A DNA stretch of 64,000 nt, from positions 1 to 64,000 of IMG/VR virus record IMGVR_UViG_3300030117_007612; one strand, written 5' to 3'. Below are positions 1-38,476 of this stretch, in pieces (the stretch's first letter is position 1; every line of letters begins with the position of its first letter). The translations under genes were made by a program, and so were the position numbers. Source of the DNA: a virus. The notes under the pieces are model-generated. The model saw only the letters and a list, made by a program, of their open reading frames with translations. It was not told the DNA's origin and made no database searches.

Positions 1-75
1 GAGATTGAGGGCGAAATCGAGAGGATGAGTGCCCTAATCGTTAAACTTGAGGATGAGGTAAGCCATGAACATTGA
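1..75 (+). CDS. C-terminal end of a gene entering from the left
   Basis: Frame 1 is open from the first base to a TGA at 73-75 and encodes 24 residues rich in Glu and Leu with a coiled-coil character (EIEGEIERMSALIVKLEDEV). The next gene starts at 65 inside it, the overlap style used through the window. Too little remains to name the protein. Confidence 0.55.
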   Translation, partial: EIEGEIERMSALIVKLEDEVSHEH

Positions 76-475
76 TTTAACTGAACGCGAGATTGAACTT
101 TTGATGATGTGCATTGAAACCAACATTGAAACTATCAAGCGCCGCCATGACGAGAACGATCCAGAAATTGCTGATTTGATTTTTGAATTGCAGGATTTGG
201 ACACTGACCTTTGGGAGTTGACGGCCCGACCTTGCCAGACTCGGCCCGATCCAGACCTCGATACCACCGATCTGGATTTGGTTGGCCGCACTTTTGAAGT
301 CGCAGAAGAACACTTTATTGACGCAGGCATCCAAGCCCGCGAGAAGATGAAGGCGACCAGCAAGGCAGCGACCAGACGTGCGTTAAACTTTTCCGGTCGC
401 GTCCGGGCTGATGGCGACCTCTCCGAGACTCAGCGCATTGATGTTTGGAACCCTAACGATCCAAGCAACTGGTAG
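65..475 (+). CDS. hypothetical acidic helical protein
   Basis: 136 aa. The first 50 residues look like a long amphipathic helix rich in Glu, Ile and Leu. An Asp/Pro-rich middle and an Arg/Lys-rich segment near residues 95-110 follow. I recognise no domain. It overlaps the upstream partial gene and is followed within 10 bases by the next start, so it is probably one operon of small early genes. Its codons are visibly G+C richer than those after about 5 kb. Confidence 0.6.
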   Translation: MNIDLTEREIELLMMCIETNIETIKRRHDENDPEIADLIFELQDLDTDLWELTARPCQTRPDPDLDTTDLDLVGRTFEVAEEHFIDAGIQAREKMKATSKAATRRALNFSGRVRADGDLSETQRIDVWNPNDPSNW

Positions 476-4922: not shown

Positions 4923-4952
4923 TTGACAGTTGTAAAAGATATGTGATATAGT
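4923..4952 (+). promoter_or_regulatory. sigma70-like promoter
   Basis: TTGACA (4923-4928), 18-base spacer, TATAGT (4947-4952). Another TTGAC lies just upstream (4911). The presumed transcript start falls in or next to the G/C hairpin at 4956-4974. Confidence 0.6.
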
Positions 4953-4974: not shown

Positions 4975-5074
4975 TACCCCCCCACCGGAATCTATGTCTC
5001 TATAAACGGATGTGCTGTGTGAGGGGTGCTAGATACATTCGCGCTGCGCGCCTAATTTTTTGAGATATGGAAAT

Positions 5075-5281
5075 ATGTGGAAATTATACAAATACGATGG
5101 CCATTACATTCAGGGAAAACTAGTTAGCAAACACTCAACAGAAAAGGCCGCATTAAACAAAGCGGAAAAAGAATTGAAGTACACATACACAGAGAAGATT
5201 AAGAGAAATAAAGAAATCATTATATGGCTAGATGACGAAAACCATAGCCCAATTGGCATGATCGTCAAAAAGACCAAATAA
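5075..5281 (+). CDS. hypothetical small basic protein
   Basis: 68 aa from the ATG at 5075; a TTG at 5060 would add five residues. Begins 'MWKLYKYDGHYIQGKLVS', then a Lys/Glu-rich helix, then a strand pair 'IIIWLDDENHSPIGMIVKK'. It looks like a compact alpha/beta domain but no family is recognised. From here on the sequence is A+T richer. Confidence 0.5.
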   Translation: MWKLYKYDGHYIQGKLVSKHSTEKAALNKAEKELKYTYTEKIKRNKEIIIWLDDENHSPIGMIVKKTK

Positions 5282-26011: not shown

Positions 26012-26362
26012 ATGAATAGTAAATATAAGTCATATTCTATATCTAATCACTTAAGAAGTAATAATAGATCATCAGATGAATTTGAGATCGCTTTAAATGC
26101 TTTATCGTTAGAAGAAGTAATAGCTTTAAAACTAGAACTATCTTCTAGGATACTTAACTCTAAAATGTATGGATTCAATTTATGGAAAAACGTTCCGACA
26201 ATCATCAGAGATGCAGTATTAAAATACGCTCTGAGTGCTACAAAATCTAAAAAAGACGCTAGCAGATATTTAGGAATTAACCTAAGAACTCTGAATAATT
26301 TGATAAAAAAACATAAAATCGATAATTATTTTGAGAATAAATTTGACAATCTTATAGATTAG
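26012..26362 (+). CDS. Fis-type helix-turn-helix protein
   Basis: 116 aa. The C-terminal 45 residues 'DAVLKYALSATKSKKDASRYLG' followed by 'INLRTLNNLIKKHKI' match the Fis/NtrC C-terminal HTH, with helix-turn-helix 'KKDASRYLGINLRTLNNLI'. The N-terminal half is a helical region of unknown role. It has its own promoter and lies directly upstream of the tmRNA promoter, which overlaps its end, so it may regulate this region or bend DNA. Confidence 0.75.
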   Translation: MNSKYKSYSISNHLRSNNRSSDEFEIALNALSLEEVIALKLELSSRILNSKMYGFNLWKNVPTIIRDAVLKYALSATKSKKDASRYLGINLRTLNNLIKKHKIDNYFENKFDNLID

Positions 26363-26370
26363 TGTATAGT
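26343..26370 (+). promoter_or_regulatory. probable promoter for the tmRNA
   Basis: TTGACA (26343-26348), 16-base spacer, TATAGT (26365-26370). It lies within the end of the HTH gene, about 160 bases before the mature 5' end of the tmRNA. The leader 26371-26532 has no gene. Confidence 0.5.
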
Positions 26371-26532: not shown

Positions 26533-26865
26533 GGGGATGATATGGATTCGACAGGGCAAAAAAGAGGAAAAGTGCAAGCAGGTTAGATACGACCATAACA
26601 GTTCAACAAACTTAGTTGCAAATAACAACTTACATTTCGAACAGCGCTTAGCCGCTTAGTAGGGAGGCCGCTCAAAGCCTTCTATCCAATTTGAGCAAAA
26701 CAACAGATAAGTTGTAAAAATCAAACCATTTATCGTTCGCGTGATGGGGGCGATATCTTATTTCCATCTATCTTTGTCAGTATGTGATAGTAAACTGACT
26801 AAGCTTGTGAATGACTACAATTGGATTTGTTTTGGACGCGGGTTCGACTCCCGCCATCTCCACCA
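26533..26865 (+). ncRNA. ssrA: transfer-messenger RNA (one-piece tmRNA)
   Basis: The 5' end GGGGATGATATGGATTCGAC is nearly the canonical tmRNA start, and the 3' end (26840-26865) gives a T-arm with GGTTCGACTCC and an acceptor strand CATCTCC-A-CCA pairing with GGGGATG. Length 333 nt and no permutation. The tag frame resumes at GCA 26618-26620 after TTAGTT and reads ANNNLHFEQRLAA before TAG at 26657-26659. The LAA end is the ClpXP-type degron. It would rescue stalled ribosomes and tag products in phage-infected cells. The CCA is encoded. Confidence 0.95.
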
Positions 26866-26968: not shown

Positions 26969-27454
26969 ATGGCTAGTTTAATTCGCAGAGGTGCGCATCC
27001 CGCTCGCACAATTTCAAAGCGGGAATTCCTGACACCATTTGATGAGTTGTTTAATACTTTTATGGGAGATATGTTTCCCACATTTCATCAAGAGTTTGGA
27101 CAGGATTTTTTTGTACAGGGATCATATCCAAAGTGCAACGTTGTTAATTTCGACGATCGTATTGAAATTGAGGCGGCGATTCCGGGTCTCACGAAGGAAG
27201 ACGTCAACGTTGAAATAGCTGATGGAGTCTTGACAATCAAAGCAGAGAGCAATCAGCGTGATGACGTTGAGGATTCTCAATACGTCAAGCGTGAGGTGAA
27301 ACGTTCGGCATTCGCGCGCTCTTTCAGGCTTGGTGAAAATCTTGATGAATCAAGAATTGCTGGCGCGCACAAAAACGGTGTATTAACAATTAGTATTCCA
27401 AAGGTGTTGCCAACCACCGCGGAGCCCGTTGTACGCAAAATAGAAATCAAATAA
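26969..27454 (+). CDS. small heat-shock protein, Hsp20/alpha-crystallin family
   Basis: 161 aa, the normal length for bacterial Hsp20. An N-terminal arm of about 50 residues precedes an alpha-crystallin domain (about 53-150) with 'DDRIEIEAAIPGLTKEDVNVEI' shortened here to 'AAIPGLTKEDVNVEI', 'GVLTIKAES' and the conserved 'AGAHKNGVLTISIPK' (A-x-x-x-N-G-V-L). ATP-independent holdase. Hsp20 genes are typical of T4-like cyanophages and marine myoviruses and may assist capsid assembly. Own promoter. Confidence 0.93.
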   Translation: MASLIRRGAHPARTISKREFLTPFDELFNTFMGDMFPTFHQEFGQDFFVQGSYPKCNVVNFDDRIEIEAAIPGLTKEDVNVEIADGVLTIKAESNQRDDVEDSQYVKREVKRSAFARSFRLGENLDESRIAGAHKNGVLTISIPKVLPTTAEPVVRKIEIK

Positions 27455-29350: not shown

Positions 29351-30106
29351 ATGTTTAAAAAAATGACATTTTTGATGACAGCCCTGTTCTTTTTAACAGG
29401 TGCTCAGACTCTTCAAAACCCTGTCGTTGATTTAAGCACAAACATCAAATCAGAATCAGCAGAAACTTTAAAAGTATCCGAGACCACACTTAAAACGAAT
29501 AAATCAAGAAACAAGGTCAGGAACGCTGCTGTTTCGGTAGTTACACAATATGGCTCTGGATCTGGAACATATTTTAAAATTGGTGAATATCACATTGTTA
29601 TTACCGCTTACCATGTTGTTGAGGGCGAGCAGGTTGTAATTGTGGTAGGTAGAAACAGCGAGCAGGTGATGGCCCAGCCAATAATTAAATCAATAAAAGG
29701 AGACATTGCAGTGCTATTGGTACCTAAATTAGCAAGCTGCCAACCCTTGAAATTGAAAAGCTTGCCAAATAGATTAAAAAACAATATCGACAAACTTGTA
29801 GGAACAGTTGTAACGTACACAGGTTTTCCGGCACATCACGAACTTCTGACAGTTGATGGCAAAATAGCGAATATTGAACATAATTTCATTATAATGCACT
29901 CATATGCATGGCCCGGATCATCAGGCTCAGGTGTGTTTGACTCAAAGGGCAGGTTTATAGGGGTTGTTAGTGCTGTTGACGTTGGTAGATGGCACCCATC
30001 AGTCCCGCCGGCGCTTGTCGAAGATATAGTTTGGGTTTCTCCGGGCTGGGATATATCACCAAAAGAAATAGAATTATATCTGCACAATCGAGGATTTAGA
30101 GAATGA
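29351..30106 (+). CDS. exported trypsin-like serine protease
   Basis: 251 aa. Signal peptide about 1-19 (MFKKMTFLMTALFFLTGAQT). The catalytic triad is readable: His in 'VITAYHVVEG' (about 84), Asp in 'SIKGDIAVLLV' (about 119) and Ser in 'WPGSSGSGVFDSKG' (G-x-S-G, about 196), spaced as in the S1/S46 chymotrypsin fold. No PDZ domain, so it is a minimal protease rather than DegP. It would act in the periplasm or envelope. ATGA overlap with the VWA lipoprotein gene. Confidence 0.88.
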   Translation: MFKKMTFLMTALFFLTGAQTLQNPVVDLSTNIKSESAETLKVSETTLKTNKSRNKVRNAAVSVVTQYGSGSGTYFKIGEYHIVITAYHVVEGEQVVIVVGRNSEQVMAQPIIKSIKGDIAVLLVPKLASCQPLKLKSLPNRLKNNIDKLVGTVVTYTGFPAHHELLTVDGKIANIEHNFIIMHSYAWPGSSGSGVFDSKGRFIGVVSAVDVGRWHPSVPPALVEDIVWVSPGWDISPKEIELYLHNRGFRE

Positions 30107-31158
30107 AAAAAGCACTTATAGCTTTATTGTCTATTATGATGAGCTATTCGTGCACCTATGATTATGCGATTGTAACCGGTAAAACTGAAACAATTGTTGA
30201 AACTGAAACAATCACCGAGACAATAACAGTAACAGAAGAGGTTGAAGTAGAGGTACCAATATATATTGAAGTCGAAGTACCAGTATATATTGACACCGGA
30301 TTTGATGATCCGGGTCTAGTGTGGGTTGATTCTTTTACTCAACCAAACACAGTTGACGGAATAGATATTTTATGGGTAATTGACACCTCTGGTTCAATGG
30401 GTAGATTTGATGCACAATTATTATTAGGTATCGAAGCTATGTTGGCTGCTCTACCGCCTACAAGTTGGAGGTTGGCAATGATGTCAAACGATCCTTCGCG
30501 CGCTGTATTAGAAAATCAGTTCCCTCTTGTACCGGGAGACGACATACTCGATGCTGAGGCAATGTATTCTTCTATGGGCCGCGGCCCCTTTGAGGAGGGT
30601 TTTGATGCTGTATATGAGTATATTATTAACAACTCATATTCTTCCACGTGGATGCGCCCAGACGCCGGATTGTTAGTCGTTTTTGTATCAGATGAGCAAG
30701 AACAAAGCGACGATCATTTCTCAGATTTAGCAGACTTTATATCATGGTACCGCAGCCTCCGCGGAGGTTCGGTATTTTTAGCTAGCATAGTTAATCACGA
30801 TTCTACTGAGACATTGTGCGATTATCCCCCAACTCCAATAGATGTGGGCACTCGTTATATGGACGCAACAAACTCTTTTGGAGGCAACATAATTGATATC
30901 TGTGCTGAAGATTGGTCGCCGGGAGTGGCCGATGCCGCAGCATCAGTTGAACCTCACGAAGCGTGGCTACTTACCCACAGTGCAATTCCCGATTCTGTCC
31001 GCGTGTTCATAAATGGAGAAGTACAGGACTCCAGCATGACAACATGGACCTACTCGGAATCCGACAATACAGTATATTTTCACACCATACCTGCTGGTAG
31101 TACTTTGGTGGAGATAGGATACCGATATTATGAAGCCGAACCTGACACCGGAGCGTAA
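30103..31158 (+). CDS. von Willebrand factor A-domain lipoprotein
   Basis: 351 aa. Lipoprotein signal 'ALLSIMMSYSC' (Cys 17). A repetitive Thr/Glu/Val linker (about 25-65, repeats of ETETIT and VEVEVP) precedes a VWA domain beginning 'IDILWVIDTSGSMGRF' with the MIDAS D-x-S-G-S. A later 'FVSDEQEQSDDHF' contributes a second acidic site. The C-terminal 70 residues are a separate beta domain ending near 'DTGA'. Such lipoproteins are common in Myxococcota-type hosts, so it may be a captured host gene. Coupled to the protease gene. Confidence 0.85.
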   Translation: MKKALIALLSIMMSYSCTYDYAIVTGKTETIVETETITETITVTEEVEVEVPIYIEVEVPVYIDTGFDDPGLVWVDSFTQPNTVDGIDILWVIDTSGSMGRFDAQLLLGIEAMLAALPPTSWRLAMMSNDPSRAVLENQFPLVPGDDILDAEAMYSSMGRGPFEEGFDAVYEYIINNSYSSTWMRPDAGLLVVFVSDEQEQSDDHFSDLADFISWYRSLRGGSVFLASIVNHDSTETLCDYPPTPIDVGTRYMDATNSFGGNIIDICAEDWSPGVADAAASVEPHEAWLLTHSAIPDSVRVFINGEVQDSSMTTWTYSESDNTVYFHTIPAGSTLVEIGYRYYEAEPDTGA

Positions 31159-31459: not shown

Positions 31460-31894
31460 ATGAAAACCAAAACACCTTATGATACCGTTGTTGTTAGCGG
31501 CGGGTTTGATCCTGTTCATGTTGGACATGTTAGGATGATTACTGAAGCTGCTGAGCATGGAGATGTAATTGTAGTAGCCAATTCTGATGAGTGGCTTTTA
31601 AACAAGAAAGGATACGTATTTATGAAATGGGAGGAAAGGGCTGAGATCTTGTCCTCGTTTAAGGGGGTCATCCGCGTTGAGAGAGTGGATGATAGTGATG
31701 GCACAGTATGCGAAGCTTTAGAAAGAATCGAGCCGACATACTTTGCCAACGGCGGCGACAGAAAAGAGACAAACACACCAGAAATGAAGGTATGCAACGA
31801 TAAGGGTATTGAATTGTTGTGGAATATTGGCGGCGGCAAAATACAAAGCAGTTCCGACTTAGTTAAAAATTATGAAGAAAAAAGATTACAATAA
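31460..31894 (+). CDS. HxGH cytidylyltransferase (TagD/RfaE-C-like)
   Basis: 144 aa, typical single-domain length. 'VSGGFDPVHVGHVRMI' (about 12-27) contains the H-x-G-H nucleotide-binding motif, and 'KWEERAEILSSF' the conserved 'ER' helix. The usual C-terminal I-S-S-T-x-x-R is replaced by 'IQSSSDLV'. Family members transfer CMP or AMP to phosphorylated sugars or polyols (glycerol-3-P, heptose-P). It may supply an activated sugar to the glycan genes downstream. It lies between tRNA-Arg and tRNA-Asn. Confidence 0.85.
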   Translation: MKTKTPYDTVVVSGGFDPVHVGHVRMITEAAEHGDVIVVANSDEWLLNKKGYVFMKWEERAEILSSFKGVIRVERVDDSDGTVCEALERIEPTYFANGGDRKETNTPEMKVCNDKGIELLWNIGGGKIQSSSDLVKNYEEKRLQ

Positions 31895-35924: not shown

Positions 35925-37214
35925 ATGGAAAATAAAAAACTTAAGATTCTAACAATTTCTGATCATCCGCTATCTCCATCTGGCGTAGGGACACAGACAA
36001 AATATTTTATTGAATCTTTAATTAAAACTGGAAATTATAGATTTATCTGCCTAGGCGGCGCTATTAAACATCATGACTATACCCCTGTTAAAGTGGCGCC
36101 ATACAATGAAGATTGGCTTATTTACCCTGTTGATGGATATGGTGATCACGAAAAAATTCGTTCTATTATTAGAAATGAAAAACCAGACGTATTGTGGTTT
36201 ATGACTGACCCAAGATTTTTTACGTGGCTGTGGGAAATTGAAGATGAAATTAGAGCCTTGATGCCAATGGTATACTATCACGTGTGGGATAATTACCCTG
36301 CTCCACATTTTAACAGGCAGTTTTACGAATCAAACGATGTTATCGTGACAATCTCCAAAGTAACAGATGATATTGTTTCAAAAGTTGCTCCGGATGTTGA
36401 TCGCGTATACATACCTCACGCGGTTGATCCTTCAATCTTTAGACCAACCGATGGTACTGACGAGCTTTTTAAGAACAGCATAACCGTAAGAGAAAGAGTA
36501 TTTAATGCCAGCTATGAAGAAACCAAAGATAAATTGCTTTTCTTCTGGAACAATAGAAACGCTAGACGAAAACAAAGTGGATCACTAATTTGGTGGTTTA
36601 AGAAATATCTAGACGTTGTTGGTCATGACAAAGCATCACTCTTGATGCACACAGACCCCAAAGATCCAAATGGGCAAGACTTGACGCATATAATGGAGCA
36701 TCTTGGGTTAAATAAGGGTCAAGTGATGATTTCCAACAACAAAATCTCGCCCCATGACCTAGCAGCTATGTATAATGCTGCAGATTGTACGCTTAACATT
36801 TCCGACGCTGAAGGATTTGGGTTGGCAACGCTTGAGTCTCTGTCATGTGAAACACCGATTATCGTGTGCATGACGGGCGGATTGCAAGAGCAGGTTACTG
36901 ATGGTGAAAATTGGTTTGGTTTTGGTATTGAACCAACATCAAAAGCAGTTATCGGCTCGCAACAAGTACCTTATATTTGCGAAGACAGAATATCAGAGCA
37001 AGACTTTGTCGACACGCTTGTTAAACTTACAAATCTGACAAGCGAGCAGCGAAAAGAATTAGGCCAAGCCGGCCGTCAGCATGTAATGAAAAATTATAGC
37101 TTTGAGGAATTTGAAAAAAGTTGGGTAAACACCATGAGTTCAATTGTTGAAAAGTATGGCTCATGGGAAGATAGACAAAATTATGAACGTTGGAGGCTTC
37201 TGGAGGTAGCATGA
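35925..37214 (+). CDS. GT4-type (GT-B) glycosyltransferase
   Basis: 429 aa; first gene of the glycan cassette, with AGGAAC upstream. N-terminal acceptor domain starts 'ILTISDHPLSPSGVGTQTKYF'. The C-terminal donor domain carries 'DAEGFGLATLESLSCETPII', the E-x7-E motif of retaining GT4 enzymes. Uses a nucleotide-sugar donor to extend a glycan; the sugar cannot be told. ATGA overlap with the next GT4 suggests a coordinated pair. Confidence 0.85.
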   Translation: MENKKLKILTISDHPLSPSGVGTQTKYFIESLIKTGNYRFICLGGAIKHHDYTPVKVAPYNEDWLIYPVDGYGDHEKIRSIIRNEKPDVLWFMTDPRFFTWLWEIEDEIRALMPMVYYHVWDNYPAPHFNRQFYESNDVIVTISKVTDDIVSKVAPDVDRVYIPHAVDPSIFRPTDGTDELFKNSITVRERVFNASYEETKDKLLFFWNNRNARRKQSGSLIWWFKKYLDVVGHDKASLLMHTDPKDPNGQDLTHIMEHLGLNKGQVMISNNKISPHDLAAMYNAADCTLNISDAEGFGLATLESLSCETPIIVCMTGGLQEQVTDGENWFGFGIEPTSKAVIGSQQVPYICEDRISEQDFVDTLVKLTNLTSEQRKELGQAGRQHVMKNYSFEEFEKSWVNTMSSIVEKYGSWEDRQNYERWRLLEVA

Positions 37215-38476
37215 AAAAGAAGATATTAGTTAAGGCGCCCGTTTTAACACGAAGTGGATATGGCGAGCATTCTAGATTTATATTACAAGCACTTCGCTCG
37301 CGTGAAGATTTGTTTGATATATATGTTGTTCCCTTGAACTGGGGCCAAACAAGCTGGATTATTGAATCTGATGAAGATCGAGAATGGGTTGATAAAGCAA
37401 TTCTGGAGACCACCAAATACCTGCATGAATTCAACAACGATCATGGCAATCAAGGAAAAAAGCCATTCGATATATCCCTTCAGGTAACAATTCCAAACGA
37501 ATGGGAAGACTTAGCCACAAAAAATATTGGTGTTACTGCTGGAATTGAGACCACCAAAGTTGCGCCGGCTTGGATTGAAAAAGCAAAAATGATGGACAAG
37601 ATTATTGTTCCCTCGAAACACTCTAGAGATATTTACAACAACACAGCATACCAAGCGACCAATAATATCACTAAAGAAACTTTATTGTTTAAAAACGATA
37701 CCGAGATTTCAGTAGTGCCATACTCTTCTAGAAAATTTAAACCAGCTAAGATTAATCTAGACTTCGAAACAGATTTTAATTTTTTCACAGTATCACAGTG
37801 GTCTCCTAGAAAGAATATTGAAAACACTATTAAATGGTTTATTGAAGAATTTTATGACAACTCAAATGTTGGTCTTGTTGTTAAGACCAATCTGGCGAAA
37901 AATTGCTTGATGGACAGAGAGGTTTGTTTTGAGAGGATTAAATCCTTATTGTCAGAATATAAGGAACGTGAATGTAAGGTTTATTTATTACATGGTCACA
38001 TGTCTGACGAAGAATTGGCGGCTGTTTATAAACACCCGAAAGTTAAATCCTATTACACCTTAACTCATGGAGAGGGATTTGGTTTACCAATCTTTGAAGC
38101 TGCGTGTCAAGGCTTACCGGTAATAGCACCATCTTGGAGCGGGCACTGTGATTTCTTATTTGCACCATCATCGAGAGGCAAGAATAGCAGAGCAAAATCA
38201 CACTTCTTGAAAGTCGAGTATGATCTTGAGGTCATTCCCGAACATGTGGCGTGGGATGGTGTCATAGAGAAGGATTCAATGTGGTGCGTTCCGCGCCAAG
38301 GTAGTGCGAAGATGGCACTGAGAAACATGTACAAGAATCACGAAAAGCACAAAACTGCAGCAAAGAAACTGCAAAAGTGGGCATTGAAGGAATTTTCTCC
38401 TGAAAAGCTCTATAAAGAAGTTATAAACATTTTGGAGGTTGAGGACAATGACGACGACCTTGTTGTTGTCCAGTAA
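37211..38476 (+). CDS. GT4-type (GT-B) glycosyltransferase
   Basis: 421 aa from the ATG at 37211. 'KAPVLTRSGYGEHSRFI' resembles the acceptor-domain Gly loop, and 'THGEGFGLPIFEAACQGLPVI' is the E-x7-E donor motif. It diverges from its neighbour, so the two probably make different linkages. Eight bases separate it from the following GT2. Confidence 0.85.
   Translation: MKKKILVKAPVLTRSGYGEHSRFILQALRSREDLFDIYVVPLNWGQTSWIIESDEDREWVDKAILETTKYLHEFNNDHGNQGKKPFDISLQVTIPNEWEDLATKNIGVTAGIETTKVAPAWIEKAKMMDKIIVPSKHSRDIYNNTAYQATNNITKETLLFKNDTEISVVPYSSRKFKPAKINLDFETDFNFFTVSQWSPRKNIENTIKWFIEEFYDNSNVGLVVKTNLAKNCLMDREVCFERIKSLLSEYKERECKVYLLHGHMSDEELAAVYKHPKVKSYYTLTHGEGFGLPIFEAACQGLPVIAPSWSGHCDFLFAPSSRGKNSRAKSHFLKVEYDLEVIPEHVAWDGVIEKDSMWCVPRQGSAKMALRNMYKNHEKHKTAAKKLQKWALKEFSPEKLYKEVINILEVEDNDDDLVVVQ

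Follow-up and report, generated by a model that had tools for sequence, protein, structure and literature searches.

A one-piece tmRNA of an uncultured T4-like jumbo phage and an undescribed small protein family adjoining it in related phages

A complete one-piece tmRNA gene (ssrA) was found at positions 26533-26865 of the window, that is, of the whole 64,000-nucleotide stretch analysed here, which corresponds to the first 64 kb of a 203,368-base virus record. The gene is very probably a functional phage tmRNA that serves ordinary trans-translation together with the SmpB, EF-Tu and alanyl-tRNA synthetase of the host. Phage tmRNA is an already known kind of gene; what is new is a one-piece family hardly touched by earlier surveys, and an undescribed family of 69-residue proteins that, in related phages, adjoins the tmRNA and usually runs into it.

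Anatomy of the phage tmRNA

ARAGORN reported a single tmRNA in the 64-kb window, at 26533-26865 on the plus strand, with the tag ANNNLHFEQRLAA closed by two stop codons. The Rfam model RF00023 matched the same interval over its full length (model positions 1-374; 114.6 bits, E 5e-44), against a gathering score of 47 bits. The identical ends given by two independent programs support a functional phage tmRNA, although most full-length gammaproteobacterial tmRNAs score higher, at 138-240 bits. The permuted (two-piece) tmRNA model RF04321 stayed under threshold (40.9 versus 47 bits) and both one-piece ends are present, so the one-piece form was assigned. The following features, all on the plus strand, were recognized in the tmRNA and upstream of it.

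26533..26865, +: one-piece tmRNA (ssrA), from ARAGORN, RF00023 (114.6 bits) and covariation
26533..26539, +: 5' acceptor strand, partner 26855-26861; the third pair is G-U (alanine identity)
26573..26579, +: 5' strand of connector helix P2, partner 26803-26809; paired in every sequence, invariant
26618..26662, +: tag reading frame ANNNLHFEQRLAA with two stops and resume codon GCA, from ARAGORN (coding part 86-130 of the tmRNA)
26662..26696, +: pseudoknot 3' of the tag, 26662-26668/26677-26683 and 26670-26676/26690-26696; both stems covary
26732..26768, +: second pseudoknot, 26732-26736/26750-26754 and 26743-26747/26764-26768; the first stem covaries
26776..26799, +: hairpin 26776-26781/26794-26799; 6/6 pairs covary
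26838..26854, +: T-arm GCGGG-TTCGACT-CCCGC, from the RF00023 match, direct reading and covariation analysis
26343..26370, +: putative sigma-70-like promoter TTGACA-16-TATAGT (11/12) upstream of the tmRNA; a consensus-scan match, by itself no proof of function

The acceptor stem (GGGGAUG/CAUCUCC) is paired at all positions, G3-U70 included, and the CCA end is encoded. Directly before the resume codon GCA stands the context UUAGUU, and the tag ends in LAA followed by UAG UAG. Two of the features by which membership among tmRNAs was judged are thus present, namely the alanine identity pair G3-U70 with a CCA end, and a tag frame with a resume codon, an LAA-type end and a stop. The G3-U70 pair has been described as completely conserved in tmRNA, which further requires a 5' end made by RNase P, alanine, the -6 to +1 context and SmpB (PMC3985003).

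The initial annotation, which had been made from the sequence alone, was borne out in these respects: a phage-encoded one-piece tmRNA with the tag ANNNLHFEQRLAA was recovered by ARAGORN and RF00023 in a T4-like phage record, and both ends, the T-arm, the resume context and the LAA tag could be read directly. The covariance-model search that it had proposed returned a full-length match well above the gathering score, and two pseudoknots downstream of the tag were found with support from covariation, loss of pseudoknots on folding having been the other point to check. Of PK1, the pseudoknot on the 5' side of the tag frame, only a single stem of three pairs was resolved. For the second stem of the second pseudoknot, the strands read GATGG/CCATC, GATAG/CTATC and GGGAAGT/ACTTCCT in relatives.

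Relatives, selection and the phage record

A degenerate pattern of the tag led to 19 other viral contigs, in each of which the tmRNA carries this tag. That search is biased by design; with a second pattern, made of the connector strand and the T-arm with the tag left out, tmRNA relatives were obtained from 75 viral contigs. The tmRNA was called by ARAGORN in nearly all of them, and the rest, mostly cut at the end of the stretch, were still recognized by Rfam. Among 87 distinct fetched tmRNAs, which take in a few less certain tag calls, ANNN was found near the start of the tag in 81 and an LAA end in 84; the middle of the tag varied in both sequence and length, and the family form is ANNN-x-HF-...-LAA. 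The resume context [AT]TA[GA]TT occurred in most relatives, and G3-U70 was present in every relative with a readable CCA end (81/81).

Covariation was analyzed in 17 distinct close relatives with a structure that had been written from the window sequence, the two pseudoknots included. Pair changes on both sides numbered 27, compared with 12.7 in shuffles and 4-10 when the structure was slid, and the covariation score was 0.239, compared with 0.120 in shuffles and 0.079 at best when slid. The paired cells amounted to 90.5% versus 84.0% in shuffles, a percentage that is somewhat favoured because the structure came from one of the sequences; the double changes are thus the stronger part of this evidence. 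One helix scored poorly (41%), the alignment being out of register there, and the acceptor stem was likewise misaligned wherever a sequence starts with a fifth G. The covariation, the invariant G3-U70 pair and the conserved degron show selection for function. A passenger gene, acquired by chance and now decaying, for instance after arrival with an element that uses ssrA as its integration site, is therefore highly unlikely: imprecise excision of prophages is known to leave ssrA fragments (PMC9004378), but the gene is complete here, its covariation is strong, its tag is conserved across many contigs and its gene neighbourhood is conserved as well.

The proteins of the record match the T4-type portal, the gp23 capsid protein, the terminase large subunit and a baseplate wedge subunit, as well as phage DNA polymerase, GroEL and a B12-dependent ribonucleotide reductase. 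The gp23 capsid gene had no close relative in a set of 50,697 phage records (all below 60% identity) but 486 relatives in viral contigs, which points to an uncultured T4-like jumbo phage. A neighbouring protein of 794 aa had no match among isolate phages. The phage group is apparently marine, given the marine assemblies that carry the tmRNA motif and the sample numbers of the relatives' contigs, which we take to be marine samples. Over the whole 203,368 bases, only one tmRNA was above cut-off, and six tRNA genes were present. The phage tRNAs for Asn and Leu were considered as serving the tag and rejected, as they would read 5 of its 13 codons versus 24.7% expected (P ~0.20, not significant). 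The phage has two chaperones, Hsp20 (window 26969-27454) and GroEL (record 176611-178182), and two glycosyltransferases lie side by side at 35925-38476 of the window. The record ends (window 1-303; 203065-203368) share an imperfect repeat of ~300 bases, 77 bases of it exact; the record may be near-complete, or may terminate in a tandem gene repeat.

Contamination with bacterial DNA, or a chimeric contig in which the tmRNA belongs to the host, was also weighed, since the record is metagenomic. This explanation has next to no probability left, and the recurrence of the phage neighbourhood already refutes it in practice: the single tmRNA lies within a series of phage genes, the same neighbourhood recurs in dozens of independent contigs, gp23 was found in 6/6 large related viral records tested, and the tmRNA motif is absent from species genomes but for four contigs, of which one or more belong to phages.

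These four stretches were the only ones in the species-genome collection with the connector strand and T-arm motif. One of them, a contig of 306 kb, encodes gp23 and is thus a phage, although it was binned with a methylotroph assembly; the tag of that assembly itself is ANDDNYALAA. Another, 10 kb long, has the window's tag and was binned in a Marinimicrobia assembly, which for its part uses ADYGYAAAA. Comparison of the tag did not lead to the host, as the initial annotation had thought possible: these two assemblies, the ones in which an own tmRNA was found, have other tags, and none of the bacterial chromosomes in the species-genome collection was shown to carry the motif. Twenty-nine gammaproteobacterial tmRNAs mostly had tags like ANDDNYALAA (AN[DNES]DNYALAA); the phage tags ANNDNYEYALAA and ANDSNYTSYALAA look intermediate, and a proteobacterial origin would fit.

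SmpB (PF01668) had no match in the 203-kb record, which extends the earlier remark that the window holds no smpB, nor in 12 related records, all of which may be incomplete; the SmpB of the host would therefore be used. We infer expression, charging, tagging, degradation and a benefit to the phage as follows. During infection the tmRNA would be transcribed and trimmed, the host enzyme would load it with alanine, and host SmpB and EF-Tu would carry it into ribosomes stalled on broken mRNAs. A-ANNNLHFEQRLAA would then be added to the unfinished protein, which would be sent to host ClpXP-type proteases, and the ribosome would be freed for phage translation. A specialised role, in which the phage tag alters the fate of the tagged proteins through another adaptor or protease, for example for faster recycling of host protein fragments, is possible but rather unlikely, and it would refine ordinary trans-translation without excluding it. 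Such a role would suit a tag that differs from the sampled bacterial tags (AN[DNES]DNYALAA, ADYGYAAAA) and that keeps its ends while its middle varies, but the LAA end, recognized by ClpX, is retained. The strict tag ends and the invariant charging pair argue for use of the tmRNA by the phages, beyond mere carriage.

The small protein beside the tmRNA

In relatives, the gene order runs from a 268-aa protein through a 116-aa HTH-like protein and often a thioredoxin-like protein to the 69-residue protein, the tmRNA and further genes, the last often including tRNA-Asn and PhoH. The corresponding and neighbouring genes of the window are given below.

26012..26362, +: product of 116 aa, weakly similar to Fis/HTH (HTH_8, under cut-off); homologue present in 53/79 fetched loci
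26969..27454, +: small heat-shock protein Hsp20, encoded 3' of the tmRNA; close to the tmRNA in only 4 relatives
5060..5281, +: undescribed small protein of ~69 aa, ATG at 5075; detached member of the family that adjoins the tmRNA

The small-protein gene of the window lies 21 kb upstream of the tmRNA, with a promoter-like site at 4923-4952. The 69-residue family had no Pfam or PHROG assignment above threshold, and the protein had no match among isolate phages. Its fold was predicted confidently by AF2 (pLDDT 95.7); a search of the PDB with this fold gave no match at E <0.2, and a structure search returned one viral model, 60% identical and nameless.

When viral contigs were searched with the 69-residue protein alone, 80 loci were obtained, 73 of which had enough downstream sequence. 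A tmRNA was called downstream by ARAGORN in 66 of the 73, and a tmRNA with an unusual T-loop was seen in the sequence of six further loci, Rfam recognizing 3/3 of those tested. In total, the small protein stands directly upstream of the tmRNA in 72/73 loci, a linkage somewhat favoured by design, as all copies in the query alignment except the window's were linked to a tmRNA. At the one remaining locus the tmRNA lies elsewhere in the same record, as in the window phage. Since tmRNAs without the small protein exist, any dependence would be one-way.

The stop codon of the small protein was located 8-41 bases inside the mature tmRNA in 54/68 distinct loci, in all three frames. As a control, ORFs that precede tRNAs on these contigs were inspected, and the stop was inside the RNA in 5/28 (Fisher P 2e-8, with loci counted as unrelated). 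The 5' end of tmRNA is made by RNase P (PMC3985003), and a cut at this point would deprive the small-protein mRNA of its stop codon and make it a substrate of the tmRNA. Tentatively, and with more doubt than confidence, the 69-residue protein may be proposed to work together with the phage tmRNA, the overlap acting as a built-in feedback through a stop-less mRNA; the two genes are separated in the window phage. Under such feedback a shortage of rescue capacity would be needed for the small protein to accumulate, as with ArfA in E. coli. The pair of small protein and tmRNA is a more interesting lead than the tmRNA itself and deserves experiments.

Several other observations were made in the neighbourhood. 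At 29351-31158 of the window lie a trypsin-like protease and, after it, a protein that weakly matches VWA, and the VWA protein is kept near the tmRNA in relatives; a cytidylyltransferase-like protein (31460-31894) is found 3' of the tmRNA in most relatives. A 182-aa product was considered as a phage ClpP near the tmRNA and rejected: it matched phrog_1128 only and no Pfam family, and its SHAEL and YCSEW motifs, by eye, resemble a cysteine peptidase and not ClpP. In some tmRNAs (L256:2703-3036, L259:2703-3036, L275:2703-3073, also L329-L335), the T-arm is GGCGG-GGCAGTA-CCGCC, without the usual TTCRA loop; these were missed by ARAGORN and scored 86-91 bits with Rfam. An identical 32-base 3' end is common to otherwise diverged tmRNAs and is perhaps a footprint of recombination or integration.

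Comparison with known systems

The phage tmRNA shares with bacterial one-piece tmRNA (RF00023) the tRNA-like domain with G3-U70, the long connector helix, the tag frame ending in LAA and the pseudoknots. It differs in being encoded by a phage, with the tag ANNNLHFEQRLAA and no SmpB alongside, and in a connector and T-arm motif confined, within species genomes, to the four stretches described above.

The initial annotation had called phage tmRNAs uncommon, which stands for isolates, where they were reported in 402/18,146 phage genomes (PMC9004378), but not for viral contigs, where relatives of the ANNNLHFEQRLAA tmRNA are common. In that earlier phage-genome survey, the marine share of one-piece tmRNAs was only 2.5% (PMC9004378), and a literature search joining tmRNA, trans-translation and jumbo phage found no paper. 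The Methylophilales phage Melnitz and the pelagimyophages (PMC9004378) are likewise marine T4-like myophages with a tmRNA of their own; however, the Melnitz tmRNA is two-piece (permuted) with a glutamine riboswitch, whereas the window tmRNA is one-piece and no match to such a riboswitch was obtained for the window phage. Streptomyces phages of the BE cluster (Elmer, Genie2) also carry a tmRNA, but they are unrelated siphoviruses with the tag ANSNVASAYALAA, and the alignment is limited to the conserved 3' end (17% of the length, 85-86% identity). Translation-rescue genes are known as well from huge phages of >200 kb (PMC7162821), where SmpB was reported, in contrast to this record and the 12 related ones.

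For the small protein, the closest parallel is arfA of E. coli (PMC10107115), in which a small protein has a stop-less mRNA that is a tmRNA substrate. The likeness would apply to the gene pair of the relatives only; the phage protein has no Pfam match to ArfA, and the cut would be made by RNase P. A large uncultured, apparently marine group thus joins the phages that bring their own ribosome-rescue RNA, and its co-conserved small protein offers a testable lead on roles of phage tmRNA beyond copying that of the host.
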